A DNA stretch of 64,000 nucleotides. Source: Halovenus salina (lineage in GTDB: Archaea; Halobacteriota; Halobacteria; Halobacteriales; Haloarculaceae). Below, piece by piece: positions 15,623 to 25,059 of this stretch; positions within the stretch are counted from its first letter, which is position 1, and the number at the start of each line of letters is the position of its first letter. The notes beneath the pieces are model-generated. The model was not told the DNA's origin. It saw only the letters and a program-made list of their open reading frames with translations, and searched no databases. The stretch covers positions 558,001 to 622,000 of the forward strand of contig NZ_CP112972.1 in assembly GCF_026410925.1 (NCBI RefSeq), in the 5' to 3' direction. The position numbers and the translations under genes were made by a program.

Positions 15623-15707
15623 GCGTGGGTAGCCAAGCCAGGCCAACGGCGCAGCGTTGAGGGCGCTGTCCTGTAGAGGTCCGCCGGTTCGAATCCGGTC
15701 CCACGCA
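15623..15707 (+). tRNA. tRNA-Leu (GAG anticodon)
   Basis: 85 bases. The acceptor stem GCGTGGG pairs with CCCACGC, with discriminator A73. The D-arm is GCC...GGC. The anticodon stem CAGCG/CGCTG encloses the 7-base loop TTGAGGG, so the anticodon is GAG at 15659-15661. A long variable arm (TCCTGTAGAGGTCC) marks a class II tRNA, and the T-arm loop is TTCGAAT. CCA is not encoded and no intron is present. A T-run (TTTTTT) follows directly. Confidence 0.95.
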
Positions 15708-19907: not shown

Positions 19908-20789
19908 ATGATAGCAGCACAGGACCTGCGCAAAGAGTACGGTGACTTTGTCGCCGTCGAGGGAAGCACATTCTCCGTCGACGAGGGTGAGGTCTTCGGC
20001 ATCGTCGGGCCGAACGGTGCCGGCAAGACCACGACGCTGAAAATGCTTGCGGGACTGCTCGACCCGACGGCCGGGACGGCGCAGGTCGCTGGCTACGACA
20101 CGAGCGAGACCGAGATGCGCAACCATCTGGGCTTTCTCCCCGAAGAGTCGCCGCTGTACGAGGAGATGACCGCAACATCGTATCTGCGGTTTTTTGCTGA
20201 CCTCTACGATGTGCCGACAGACGTTGCAGACAAGCGGATAACGGAGACACTCGATAAACTCGACCTGGAACACCGCAACCGCCAACTCGGGGATATGTCG
20301 AAAGGGATGAAGCGGAAGGTCGCAATCACGCGCTCGCTGGTCAACGACCCGGACGTGTTGATATACGACGAGCCCGCAAGTGGCCTTGACCCGCTGACGA
20401 CGAACTACATCATCCAGTTCACCGAAGAGCTGGCAGCAGAGGGCAAGACAATCGTCTTCAGCGCGCACAACCTCTTTCACGTCGAATCTATCTGTGACCG
20501 GGTGGCGATTATGAACGACGGCGAAATCGTCGCCAGGGGCGACCTCGACGAACTGCAGGAGGCCCACGGCGAGACCACCTATCACGTCTACACGACCGTC
20601 GAGGTCTCCGACAGCGTCCGAGAGAACGGCAGACACCGACGGACTGTCGAGTCGATGTCCGCAGTCGAAGAGACGCGGACGCTCGCCCAGCAGGCAGACG
20701 GCGAGGTCGTCGACATCCGGACGGAGGAGTCGAGTCTCGAAGAGGTGTTCCTGAACGTCGCACAGCCGGGCTCGCGGTCGGAGGGCTGA
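19908..20789 (+). CDS. ABC transporter ATP-binding protein (ABC-2 exporter type)
   Basis: 293 residues. Walker A is GPNGAGKTT, the Q-loop FLPEESPLYEEMTA, the signature a degenerate LGDMSKGMKRKVAI, Walker B VLIYDEPASGLDP and the H-loop FSAHNLFHVE. The C-terminal about 80 residues are an accessory domain. It resembles NatA/CcmA-like exporters. It is the first gene of a three-gene operon with two ABC-2 permeases; the next gene starts two bases after its stop. Confidence 0.93.
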   Translation: MIAAQDLRKEYGDFVAVEGSTFSVDEGEVFGIVGPNGAGKTTTLKMLAGLLDPTAGTAQVAGYDTSETEMRNHLGFLPEESPLYEEMTATSYLRFFADLYDVPTDVADKRITETLDKLDLEHRNRQLGDMSKGMKRKVAITRSLVNDPDVLIYDEPASGLDPLTTNYIIQFTEELAAEGKTIVFSAHNLFHVESICDRVAIMNDGEIVARGDLDELQEAHGETTYHVYTTVEVSDSVRENGRHRRTVESMSAVEETRTLAQQADGEVVDIRTEESSLEEVFLNVAQPGSRSEG

Positions 20790-20791
20790 GC

Positions 20792-22744
20792 GTGCGGCCG
20801 CGAAAACTCCTCCGTATCGCCCGGTGGGAAGTGACGAAAAACGCCGGCGGCATCGACCGCCGGACAATCGTCATCGCACTGGTCGCGCTGGCGCTGTTCG
20901 GACTCGCCGTCCCGTTCATCATAAGCGGCGATACCGGCCTTGATGACGGACTCTATCGCGTCTCTGTCGACAGCGAGAGTCCCTACTACGATGTGGTCGA
21001 ATTCGACGACGCGTTCGTCATTAAAGAGGGAGGTGAGGCCGCTGTCAACCAAAGCGAGGCGGAGCTGTATATCGGTGACGGCGAGATTGTCTACGCTGAA
21101 TCACGGAAGGGAGTGGCCGCCTACGGCCAACTCCAGAGCGCGGTCAACCGTTACAACAACAGACAGCTACGACAGGAACTGAACCAGACCGCCGCGTTCC
21201 CGGTCTCGGTCGTTCTTGAGTACCGCCAACAGAGCGCGCTCGGTGACGCGCTCCGAATCGGTGGTGACTCTCGGGAGCCAGACGACACCACAGATAGCGA
21301 GGGAGGAACAAGCGACGGTAGCGACGACAGTGACGGCGGCGATGGCGGAGCAAACGACGGCAGCGACGGCTCGCCCGACCAGTCCGGCAGTGACGGAGGA
21401 GCAGACGGAACCACCACAGAGCGCGGTCCGACAACAGGCTCCGGCGGGTCTGGCGGGCCAATCGGCGGCTTCGGTGCCTCCTTTACCGAAGACACAGTTT
21501 CCGGCTCGCCGTCGGACATCGACCCGCCGTTCCCGTTCCAGTCGCTCGTGTTGGCCTTTCTGGTCATCGTTCCCCTGAACTTCCTCATCCAGGCCTACGG
21601 GAGCACGATTCTCTCAGAGCGGACCAACCGCCGCGGCGAGTTACTGCTGGTGTCGCCGGTCAGCCGATTCGACATCATCGGGGGGAAGACGCTGCCGTAT
21701 CTCGTGGGCGGGATGGCCGTCGAAGTCGCCATCATCGCCGCTCTCTTCGTCCTCGTCAACGGCCAGGTCGGCGGGCCGATATCGGTGCTCGCGGTGACGC
21801 CGCTCGTCTTGCTGTTTCTGGGCGCGACCTTCCTGGGAGCGATGTTCGCCCGGTCGTTCAAGGAGCTGACGTTCGTGACCGTCACCATCACGGTCACGCT
21901 GACGAGCTACGCGTTCGTGCCGGCTATCTTCACAGATGTGGGTTCGGTTGCACTTATCTCGCCGCTGACGCTCGTTGTCCGTGAACTCCAGGGTGAGGCA
22001 ATTACGGTTGCGGAGTTCGTCTTTTCGACGACGCCACCGCTTCTGTGTTCGGGAGTGTTCTTCGGGCTCGGTGCCGGGCTCTACCGCGAAGAGGACATGT
22101 TCGACCAGCGCTCACTGCGTGGACGCGTCCTCGACGCGCTTGTCGGACCGATTCCCCTCCGGGGGAAATCGGGTGGCGTTACGGCCCGTCTGGATAGGGT
22201 GTTACCCGTCGATGTGACACCGCTTCGGCAGTACCTGGCGGTCGGCGGGCTCACGGCCGCACTCATCCCGTTCGTCTTCGTCGTCCAGTTGCTCGCTATT
22301 GCCCTGCTCTTTGCGCTCGGCGAGATTTCAATCGTCCTCATCCTCGTCGTGGTCGCGGTCGTCGAGGAACTGGCAAAGAGCCTCCACATCTATGCCGGCT
22401 ACACCCACCAGCGGTTTGCGGGCGGTCGCCGGCGAGCTGTGCTCCTGGGTGTCGCAAGCGGCGTCGGATTCTTCCTCGCAGAGAAGATTGCGCTGTTGGC
22501 ACAGCTGGTCGGGCTGCCGGAACTCGCTGTCGGTGAGGCGGGACTGCAAGGTGGTATCATCCCCGGACCGCCAGTGCTGACGGTGCTTCTATTCTTGCTT
22601 GCACCGCTTGCCCTGCACGTGGTGACTGCCAGTATCTCGGCGATCGGTGCTAGCCGGGGCAAACGGGCATACGTGGCGGGAGTCGGACTCGCGATGGTGG
22701 TCCACCTGGCCTACAACCTGACGGTGGTGGTCAGCGTTGTTTGA
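20792..22744 (+). CDS. ABC-2 type permease fused to a PrsW-like intramembrane protease domain
   Basis: 650 residues, GTG start two bases after the ATPase stop. Residues 1-430 form an ABC-2 permease: helix 1 near 25-50, a large extracytoplasmic loop with a Gly/Ser/Asp-rich linker (about 157-234), then several helices including LVLAFLVIVPLNFLI and ELLLVSPVSRFDIIGGK. Residues about 480-650 carry the PrsW/CPBP-like motif set: EELAK (E525, E526, K529), FFLAE (E564), PLALH (H609) and HLAYN (H638, N642). The protease motifs look intact. The fusion suggests that substrate cleavage and export are physically linked; that is inference. Confidence 0.85.
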   Translation: MRPRKLLRIARWEVTKNAGGIDRRTIVIALVALALFGLAVPFIISGDTGLDDGLYRVSVDSESPYYDVVEFDDAFVIKEGGEAAVNQSEAELYIGDGEIVYAESRKGVAAYGQLQSAVNRYNNRQLRQELNQTAAFPVSVVLEYRQQSALGDALRIGGDSREPDDTTDSEGGTSDGSDDSDGGDGGANDGSDGSPDQSGSDGGADGTTTERGPTTGSGGSGGPIGGFGASFTEDTVSGSPSDIDPPFPFQSLVLAFLVIVPLNFLIQAYGSTILSERTNRRGELLLVSPVSRFDIIGGKTLPYLVGGMAVEVAIIAALFVLVNGQVGGPISVLAVTPLVLLFLGATFLGAMFARSFKELTFVTVTITVTLTSYAFVPAIFTDVGSVALISPLTLVVRELQGEAITVAEFVFSTTPPLLCSGVFFGLGAGLYREEDMFDQRSLRGRVLDALVGPIPLRGKSGGVTARLDRVLPVDVTPLRQYLAVGGLTAALIPFVFVVQLLAIALLFALGEISIVLILVVVAVVEELAKSLHIYAGYTHQRFAGGRRRAVLLGVASGVGFFLAEKIALLAQLVGLPELAVGEAGLQGGIIPGPPVLTVLLFLLAPLALHVVTASISAIGASRGKRAYVAGVGLAMVVHLAYNLTVVVSVV

Positions 22745-23807
22745 CCACCCACGCTGGACGATTACGAAACGCGAACTTGGCTCACTCAGCCGCGAGAAGA
22801 CGATTGTTCTGGCCATCTGTATCCAGCTGTTTATCGCCGCCTTCTCGTCGTTTCTGGTCGTCGGGCTCACCTCGCTGTACGACCCTGGCTCCGTCGACGG
22901 TGCCGCGGACATCGAGGTCGGTATCTCGGGCGATGTCGAGGAGAACCTGCTCCGAGCCGGCCAACAAGTCGACGGCCTCAGCGTCCGTCGGGTGGCGTCG
23001 AATGACGATGCGCTCCAGTTGTTCGAGCGAGGACAGGTCGATGCCGTCATCTCGACTGCGAGCGCGCCGGCAGGCGGTGGCGGCACACAGGTACAAGTCG
23101 AGGCTGTTGTCCCGGCCGAGGACCTCCGAACGACAGTCATCGTCGTCACTGTCCGCGAACTACTCACGGAGCTAGAGCGCCTGGAACGGGTCGAGCGCGT
23201 CGACTACCTCGACCAGACTCCGGTGGAGGTTCCCGAGGATGTGGGGTCGAGTTCGTACTTCGGGTTCACCTACACCATCCTGTTGCCGCTGTTGTTGTTC
23301 CTCCCAGCCTTCATCAGCGGCTCGGTCGTTGTCGACTCGATTACCGAGGAGATAGAGCAGGGAACGCTCGAACTGCTCCGCGTGTCACCGGTGTCGCTGG
23401 TCGACATCGTCGACGGCAAGGCCGCCGGCATGGTCGCAATCGCTCCGATTCAGGCCGGGCTCTGGATGGCGCTGTTGCGGCTCAACGGGACCGGTATCGA
23501 GAACGTCGGTCTGCTGTTGGCCTTCGTGACTGCCATGACACTGATAACGGTCGTCGTCGGCACGATGCTGGGGCTGTTAACCGGACAGCGACGGCAGGCA
23601 CAGTTGTTGTACTCACTGCTTGCGGTACTGCTCTTTGGTGGGACAATCGCCCTGCCGGAACATCCCGCGAGTACGGTTGCGCTGCTCGCCGCCGACAGCG
23701 CGACGGGGACAAGTATCGCTCACGTCGCCGGATTCGCCGCGCTCGGCCTCGTTCTGTACGCCGGCGTCCGGTGGTACGCGGGCCGAGTCGACGTAGAATC
23801 CCTCTAA
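22737..23807 (+). CDS. ABC-2 type permease, second subunit
   Basis: 356 residues with a TTG start overlapping the previous gene by 8 bases, so the two are translationally coupled. An N-terminal helix (TIVLAICIQLFIAAFSSFLV) is followed by an extracytoplasmic domain of about 130 residues. Five C-terminal helices follow, with FTYTILLPLLLFLPAFISG and the ABC-2 signature EEIEQGTLELLRVSPVSLVDIVDGK. Together with the first permease it would make a heterodimeric exporter. The stop shares four bases with the convergent DUF371 gene. Substrate unknown. Confidence 0.88.
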   Translation: MFDHPRWTITKRELGSLSREKTIVLAICIQLFIAAFSSFLVVGLTSLYDPGSVDGAADIEVGISGDVEENLLRAGQQVDGLSVRRVASNDDALQLFERGQVDAVISTASAPAGGGGTQVQVEAVVPAEDLRTTVIVVTVRELLTELERLERVERVDYLDQTPVEVPEDVGSSSYFGFTYTILLPLLLFLPAFISGSVVVDSITEEIEQGTLELLRVSPVSLVDIVDGKAAGMVAIAPIQAGLWMALLRLNGTGIENVGLLLAFVTAMTLITVVVGTMLGLLTGQRRQAQLLYSLLAVLLFGGTIALPEHPASTVALLAADSATGTSIAHVAGFAALGLVLYAGVRWYAGRVDVESL

Positions 23808-24229: not shown

Positions 24230-24281
24230 GACGGAGGCTGTGGCCGAGAGCGTCAATAATGGGTCGATTCGAGACCGTCCC

Positions 24282-24368
24282 TCAGATGAGGGATCCGACG
24301 CCGATAGCGATGGTCGAGCCGACCATCAAGACGACGAAGAAGATGGCAATCCACTGTTCGGTGTCCAT
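24282..24368 (-). CDS. 28-aa single-helix membrane micro-protein
   Basis: An ATG frame encodes MDTEQW followed by one hydrophobic helix (IAIFFVVLMVGSTIAIGVG) and a short end. Similar tiny membrane proteins beginning MDTEQW are familiar conserved hypotheticals in Halobacteria. A TATA-like GTCTAACTTT (minus strand) lies about 27 bases before the start. The role is unknown; it may be a subunit or regulator of a membrane complex. Confidence 0.65.
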   Translation of the reverse strand: MDTEQWIAIFFVVLMVGSTIAIGVGSLI

Positions 24369-24450
24369 ACACGGAGGGAGTCTGTGCCGAAAGTTAGACC
24401 TTTCGCTAGCGGGCGACACACTCAACAGCCGGCAGACCAAACCACCAATT

Positions 24451-25059
24451 ATGAGTTCCCGCTCGGCCATGCCGACCTTCGAGCTGGTAGGGCTGTTTGC
24501 CGTCGTCTATCTCCTCCAGATGCTGTCGGCGGTCACAGGCCTCGTCAGCGAGCTGTTCGTGTTACAGCCACCAATTCAGGACGACCCCTGGACAGTAGTC
24601 ACGAGCGTCTTTGCACACGCCGACATCGGCCACCTCGTCTCGAACTCGGTCGCGCTGTTGCTTATCGGTATCCCGGTAGCGATGTTCACCACCCGTGTCC
24701 GGTTTCACAGCTTTTTCGTCGGCGCGGGGGCACTCGCTGGCGTCGCCCAAATTGTGTTGAGCGGGGTGTTCTCGGTGGTCCCAGTCGTCGGCTTCACCGC
24801 CTCGCCGGGCGTCGTCGGTGCGAGCGGGGGCGTCTTCGCGTTGCTTGGCTACCTGCTCGCGAGCAACCGAGTCGCGACGACCCTCGGATCGGCTCTCAGA
24901 CTCCCCAACTGGCTGACCTACGCTGTGTTTTTCCTCCTCGCTGGGATGTTGACTCTCGTGACAGCATCGCCAGGGGCAGCACTCATCGCCCATTTCACCG
25001 GATTGATTGTCGGACTTGCCGCAGGGCGAGCCCACCTGCTCGACCCGATGCGCTGGTAG
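24451..25059 (+). CDS. Rhomboid-family intramembrane serine protease
   Basis: 202 residues, six predicted transmembrane helices. The catalytic serine motif is GASGGVFALLGY and the catalytic histidine lies in AHFTGLIVGL in the last helix. HADIGHLVSNSVALLLIG matches the conserved H-x-x-x-H-x-x-x-N element of helix 2. It cleaves membrane protein helices inside the bilayer; substrates cannot be predicted. The frame is open upstream to 24259, but the ATG at 24451 begins the membrane protein and avoids overlap with the micro-protein. Confidence 0.9.
   Translation: MSSRSAMPTFELVGLFAVVYLLQMLSAVTGLVSELFVLQPPIQDDPWTVVTSVFAHADIGHLVSNSVALLLIGIPVAMFTTRVRFHSFFVGAGALAGVAQIVLSGVFSVVPVVGFTASPGVVGASGGVFALLGYLLASNRVATTLGSALRLPNWLTYAVFFLLAGMLTLVTASPGAALIAHFTGLIVGLAAGRAHLLDPMRW

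Follow-up and report, generated by a model that had tools for sequence, protein, structure and literature searches.

An exporter-protease fusion of Halovenus salina, retained with its active-site residues in relatives, suggests cutting and export of membrane-protein pieces

Can a single membrane protein cleave a segment within the bilayer and also take part in its export? The question was raised by an open reading frame of Halovenus salina in the window analysed here, a stretch of 64,000 nt from NZ_CP112972.1 (positions 558,001-622,000; all coordinates below are window positions). Links between bacterial ABC exporters and intramembrane proteases are known, as for Ecs with RasP or Eep. In the present gene both parts lie in one chain, which is mostly single-copy in the family and has its active site intact in 121/121 distinct C-termini, so that a possible coupling of cleavage to transport could be addressed by point mutations of a single gene. 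Little is said to be known of what archaeal membrane proteases cleave, and the function of the PrsW-like protein HVO_0408 of H. volcanii is given as not known (PMC9263693). PrsW itself is reported to be present in a limited number of archaea (PMC4343526).

Architecture of the fused protein

The open reading frame (20792..22744, +) has a GTG start and encodes 650 residues. Its permease half (residues 1-430; 20792..22081, +) gave a Pfam match to PF12679 at 30.1 bits, above the cut-off of 27.2, and a match to PF12698 at 26.7 bits, below that family's own cut-off of 31.6. In the AlphaFold2 model, this half was made of six long helices with a large loop after helix one. A linker rich in Gly, Asp and Ser (residues 157-234; 21260..21493, +) sits between the first two long helices, with 24 Gly, 15 Asp and 12 Ser among its 78 residues. 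It falls inside a stretch of low confidence (139-243, pLDDT <50), and the stretch aligned with it ranged from 24 to 136 residues in length across 76 rows. The C-terminal peptidase domain spans residues 476-650 (22217..22741, +). The nearest named relative in the alignment, Halovenus aranensis, shared 88 percent identity over the protein.

Two further transporter genes enclose the fused gene. The preceding one (19908..20789, +) encodes an ABC transporter ATPase of 293 aa with a PF00005 match at 1.5e-30, a Walker A motif (GPNGAGKT) and a Walker B motif (LIYDE); it ends at 20789, and the fused ORF starts at 20792. The following one (22737..23807, +) encodes a second ABC-2 permease (PF12698, 1.5e-19) of 356 aa from its first TTG, and with this start at 22737 it overlaps the fused ORF by 8 bases. 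We identified an ABC-2 exporter from the PF12679 match above cut-off together with the adjacent preceding ATPase. A preliminary description had proposed the 650-residue frame, the fusion of permease and peptidase within it, its placement between an ATPase and a second permease, and the linker at 157-234. These were all borne out, by the ORF positions, by Pfam for the permease (about 1-430), by the PrsW assignment of the region from about 476 to 650 and by the composition of the linker. One plasmid record found annotates the fused protein as 'ABC transporter permease subunit'.

PrsW family membership and the motif residues

At the fused gene, a profile search of the genome matched the PrsW family PF13367 at 31.2 bits (cut-off 23.5). 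Under default filters, PF13367 was absent from the hmmscan results for the window protein and for its own C-terminal part. Among 76 aligned homologues, the family was listed for 46 when the C-termini were searched (E <= 0.01, best E 5.5e-11) and for just 3 when the full-length proteins were, indicating that the default filters easily lose the domain. When profiles were compared with hhalign, 21 fused haloarchaeal C-termini matched 30 haloarchaeal PrsW domains at a probability of 94 and an E of 1.1e-7, with all four motifs in register, and 20 C-termini from outside the order aligned with the haloarchaeal PrsW domains at probability 93 and E 4.1e-7. At E <1e-3, the haloarchaeal PrsW-domain profile matched 5/21 haloarchaeal and 1/20 other C-termini, and 0/82 control sequences made by reversal or shuffling. 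Most of the real C-termini fell below this threshold, and the comparison with controls, though not strong on its own, would support a match beyond chance. As judged from sequence, the resemblance of the domain to PrsW is more than chance, because the seven motif residues are intact in 121/121 C-termini and PF13367 stands above its curated cut-off at the gene.

The domain had been described as PrsW/CPBP-like, and the profiles upheld the first of these names (PF13367, hhalign) and not the second (PF02517). The CPBP family PF02517 had eight matches elsewhere in the genome at E <= 1 and none at the fused gene, and hmmscan found CPBP in 0/76 homologous C-termini. The second CPBP motif is FxxxH. The fused protein has neither this motif nor EExxxR, and carries EExxK and E564 instead. 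EExxxR is given as the CPBP motif (PMC4602095, PMC6588880). CPBP membership was rejected on the absence of PF02517 at the gene and in the 76 C-termini. Since the PrsW profile matched and the CPBP profile did not, the assignment was narrowed to PrsW. Taken as one claim, the fusion and the PrsW membership of its C-terminal domain are almost certain from the profile and motif evidence.

The motif residues were found at the positions proposed for them, with EELAK starting at residue 525, FFLAE at 560, PLALH at 605 and HLAYN at 638. The first motif, EExxK (E525, E526, K529), lies at 22364..22378 (+). It is followed by E564 of GFFxxE(K) (22481..22483, +), which aligned with the glutamate of GFxxxE(N) in the haloarchaeal PrsW domains, by H609 (22616..22618, +), which aligned with a histidine of these domains, and by HxxYN (H638, N642; 22703..22717, +), which aligned with their HxxYN. 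All seven residues were kept in 121/121 distinct homologous C-termini, a figure to be read with the origin of the named loci, which came from a peptide-pattern scan whose patterns contained motif residues and of which one sufficed; the other loci were found by BLAST or profile searches. Of the 121 sequences, which were drawn from 146 rows, 101 came from haloarchaeal loci and 20 from genomes elsewhere in the phylum. Taken over all its columns the domain varies, with a mean column identity of 50 percent, while these residues are invariant. PrsW is characterized by EExxK, by HxxxD as its last motif and by a conserved histidine in the helix preceding that motif (PMC4602095). EExxK and the histidine were present in all 121 C-termini, and the last motif reads HxxYN rather than HxxxD, as it does in the aligned haloarchaeal PrsW domains. 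The complete conservation of the seven residues argues for a working active site, and the PrsW-type domain is very probably an active peptidase.

The AlphaFold2 model of the whole protein had a mean pLDDT of 79.6 and a pTM of 0.73. It had no PDB match at E <= 0.001 in Foldseek, and the domain was therefore modelled alone (pLDDT 88.5, pTM 0.84); this model also had no PDB match at E <= 0.001. In the whole-protein model the domain comprised five helices, at about 476-509 (broken at 491), 512-538, 546-572, 594-621 and 624-649. Eight membrane helices are reported for most PrsW members (PMC3482391); as the source says 'most', this number was not treated as defining. Two loops lie at about 539-545 and 622-623, and the distances to them along the chain are 12 residues for E526, 18 for E564, 12 for H609, 14 for H638 and 18 for N642. 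Around these loops, the stretches 537-547 and 619-627 hold three Arg/Lys each and zero acidic residues. We infer from this charge pattern that both loops are cytoplasmic, which would place the motif residues at similar depth on the predicted helices.

Chains C of gamma-secretase ranked 1, 2 and 4 among the PDB matches of the domain (5a63, 8oqy and 8oqz), with probabilities of 0.90-0.92, TM-scores by query of 0.52-0.58 and weak E values, only 0.40-0.78. We take the chains C of 8oqy and 8oqz to be APH-1, a non-catalytic protein. Chain C of 5A63 is APH-1, which has QExxR where the fused protein has EExxK (PMC6588880). PrsW, the CAAX proteases and APH-1 are grouped in one superfamily (PMC4602095, PMC6588880). 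There was no Rce1-type protease among the best 50 Foldseek PDB matches of the domain, and the domain profile had no match at E <= 10 when run against the sequences of solved structures.

Compared with PF13367 proteins of B. subtilis and haloarchaea, the fused protein has in common EExxK, the glutamate of the next helix and a further histidine, and it shares HxxxN with the haloarchaeal members. It differs from PrsW in carrying an ABC-2 permease, in the five helices predicted for the domain against eight in most PrsW, and in having EK at motif 2 where haloarchaeal PrsW domains have EN. The NCBIfam family NF041647 (ABC permease subunit/CPBP intramembrane protease) likewise joins an ABC permease to a C-terminal peptidase of the wider superfamily, but the peptidase is CPBP there and PrsW here. 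The fused protein gave no match to NF041647 at E <= 1, and there was none at its place in the genome at E <= 0.001. The cut-off of this bacterial family (ABC_perm_CPBP) was passed by 0/99 sampled genomes around G528. The second permease weakly matched the permease part of NF041647 (E 5.7e-6). Fusions of an ABC permease with an intramembrane peptidase are thus already known in the CPBP type, and the present protein carries PrsW in its place. Among the literature matches listed there was no report of an ABC-PrsW fusion, which does not establish its absence from print.

When 59 genomes of the class were sampled, 57 had a strong PF13367 match (E 4.1e-38 or better). The fused gene was the sole PF13367 match in the present genome and in G164, and a stand-alone PrsW seems to be missing from the present genome. 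One of the CPBP matches in the same genome (G000:C1:292842-293528) lies inside an open frame of 860 codons, which may encode a further large protein that includes an intramembrane peptidase.

Distribution and gene order

Matches to the C-terminal part were found in 111/146 genomes of the family and 20/22 genera (E <= 0.001), mostly one per genome. Across the phylum, profile matches occurred in 202/392 genomes and 85/137 genera, counts that include weak matches (e.g. 3.5e-5 and 8.9e-4) which may be ordinary PrsW; among the matches listed, the open frame around the match was mostly some 550 to 1000 codons long. Loci inspected more closely were 30 from the family, 80 named ones, 20 further ones of the order and 20 chosen among the hits outside the order. 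The alignment began within the first 8 residues of the window protein in 78 of the 80 named loci, L103 and L117 holding the later part of the fused protein only, and the 20 further loci of the order had frames of 603 to 998 codons. Outside the order, in genomes that we take to be probably methanogens, the permease part was visible in 19 of the 20 chosen loci and was confirmed by Pfam in one, L193; L210 had a 444-codon frame without the N-terminal part. Trees of the permease half and of the domain (45 rows) each placed a single change between haloarchaeal and other sequences in 100 percent of bootstrap trees, with several weak inner branches, some haloarchaeal rows placed differently and a long branch for L204. 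The agreement of the two trees on the deepest split, which is short of a full congruence test, is consistent with a single ancient fusion whose two parts have since been passed on together.

The neighbouring genes were also well preserved. BLAST found a homologue of the ATPase in 76 and of the second permease in 79 of the 80 named loci, and by strict rules the order ATPase-fusion-second permease on one strand held in 68. Eight of the remaining 12 have all three genes and fail on ORF extent or spacing. Three others (L091, L117 and L118) lie at or near a contig start, without the ATPase. L149 has neither the ATPase nor the second permease despite long flanks, which we counted against the preferred reading of the trio as an exporter with a built-in peptidase. 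Outside the order, the second permease followed the fusion in 19 of the 20 chosen loci, and an ATPase gene was upstream on the opposite strand, within about 1.1 kb, in 16; of the other four, one had such a gene on the same strand and three had none nearby. The fusion is also present in Haloferax elongans and H. larsenii (L140 and L152), and in Halorussus salinisoli the fused gene occurs twice, at L149 and L156. L117, although haloarchaeal-like, belongs to an assembly that bears the title uncultured Bacteroidetes, and its contig is probably misbinned.

ORFs of at least 110 codons from the 80 named loci were clustered, and the 18 largest clusters contained no candidate substrate gene that recurred next to the trio. 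Within these clusters, the sole same-strand neighbour outside the trio that occurred in more than 30 loci was one gene (33/80), presumably aldo/keto-reductase-like. The larger opposite-strand clusters look like shadow ORFs of the trio. In L192-L195, outside the order and from genomes that we take to be Methanosarcina-like, the second permease is followed by a secreted-looking protein of 597-613 aa, which ends in a C-terminal helix, and by a small membrane protein. In L193, the sole one tested, the secreted-looking protein had TRAP-beta/BatD/DUF11-like domains. These two proteins are a possible substrate or partner. L193 also has an MscS channel gene between the ATPase and the fusion.

A proposed role for the trio and its alternatives

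The fusion, the family membership, the intact motifs, the ATPase motifs and the conserved trio are observed at the sequence level. We propose that the trio would form one ABC exporter, composed of the ATPase, the permease with its C-terminal PrsW-type glutamic intramembrane peptidase, and the second permease. The PrsW half would cleave segments embedded in the membrane, for example residual signal peptides or transmembrane stubs. Driven by ATP, the two permeases would pull the resulting fragments from the bilayer, and cleavage would form a single process with clearance or export. That the peptidase is functionally coupled to the ABC cycle appears about evenly balanced. By analogy with bacterial systems, a cut-and-eject machine, in which the ABC unit would take away what the peptidase has cut within the membrane, may be slightly less probable than that. 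The assignment of signal peptides, transmembrane stubs and similar membrane-embedded segments as the substrate class is tentative and rather doubtful. In its fullest form the proposal is unlikely to hold in every part: a single polypeptide would cleave signal peptides or stubs in the bilayer and hand them to its own ABC channel, cleaning the membrane or releasing peptides that might carry signals between archaeal cells, as an archaeal counterpart of Eep/EcsAB inherited as a unit within the phylum.

The closest functional parallels are EcsAB-RasP and PptAB-Eep of Firmicutes, in which an ABC exporter likewise acts with an intramembrane protease, although as separate proteins. The trio would act like RasP or Eep followed by EcsAB or PptAB, with the peptidase built in and taken from another family. 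To our knowledge, neither Ecs nor RasP belongs to the families identified in the trio, which we counted against the proposal. The protease of the Firmicutes systems is a metalloprotease, unlike the PrsW-family domain, and several linear peptides derived from lipoprotein signals were reported to be little or not released in S. aureus eep and ecsAB mutants (PMC7157817). RasP processing was inhibited in B. subtilis ecs mutants, and a membrane-cleaning role of Ecs was proposed (PMC2996298). Peptide export by PptAB has been described in streptococci (PMC7564271, PMC5167397). For toxins, a double role of PrsW as both conduit and peptidase has been proposed, and the PrsW fusions listed in that context include no ABC permease (PMC3482391).

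The same data allow other readings, which differ mainly in what the peptidase would do. An active PrsW-type peptidase may regulate or mature the transporter or one envelope protein by a site-1-like cut, the ABC part having a separate function such as lipid or drug export. This is possible but on balance improbable. B. subtilis PrsW makes the site-1 cut in RsiW (PMC4602095), PrsW domains fused to signalling domains have been described (PMC3482391), and the large loop between the first two helices could sense a signal. However, the same fusion and neighbours recur across the phylum, more than a loose regulatory link would need, and no regulated partner gene recurred in the 18 largest ORF clusters of the named loci.

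It is less probable that the domain is not, or not only, a protease and instead modifies lipid-linked cargo or scaffolds the exporter. Some superfamily members are thought not to be proteases, which we also counted against the proposed cut-and-eject role, and one component of a two-component lipoprotein acyltransferase system of S. aureus is CPBP-related, which we counted in favour of a non-protease function. That system has been reported in PMC7387801. The invariance of the seven motif residues in a domain that otherwise varies speaks against such a function. Peptidase-plus-ABC exporters for bacteriocins exist, and the trio might by the same token export one dedicated peptide, for example a halocin or pheromone, and cleave off its leader, in line with the secreted-looking protein after the second permease in four loci outside the order. 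We regard this as quite unlikely, in view of the 111 of 146 family genomes with mostly a single match, a housekeeping-like spread, and of the lack of a short recurring gene beside the trio among ORFs called from at least 90 codons and clustered from at least 110, limits below which the gene of a small precursor might have escaped notice.

Just downstream, the trio is followed by a gene for a rhomboid intramembrane serine protease (24259-25059, +; PF01694, 6.7e-21). A link between this gene and the trio was rejected because a homologue of it was present in only 5/80 named loci. An Rfam gathering search of the window gave zero matches, and ARAGORN placed a tRNA-Leu (gag) at 15623-15707 (+).
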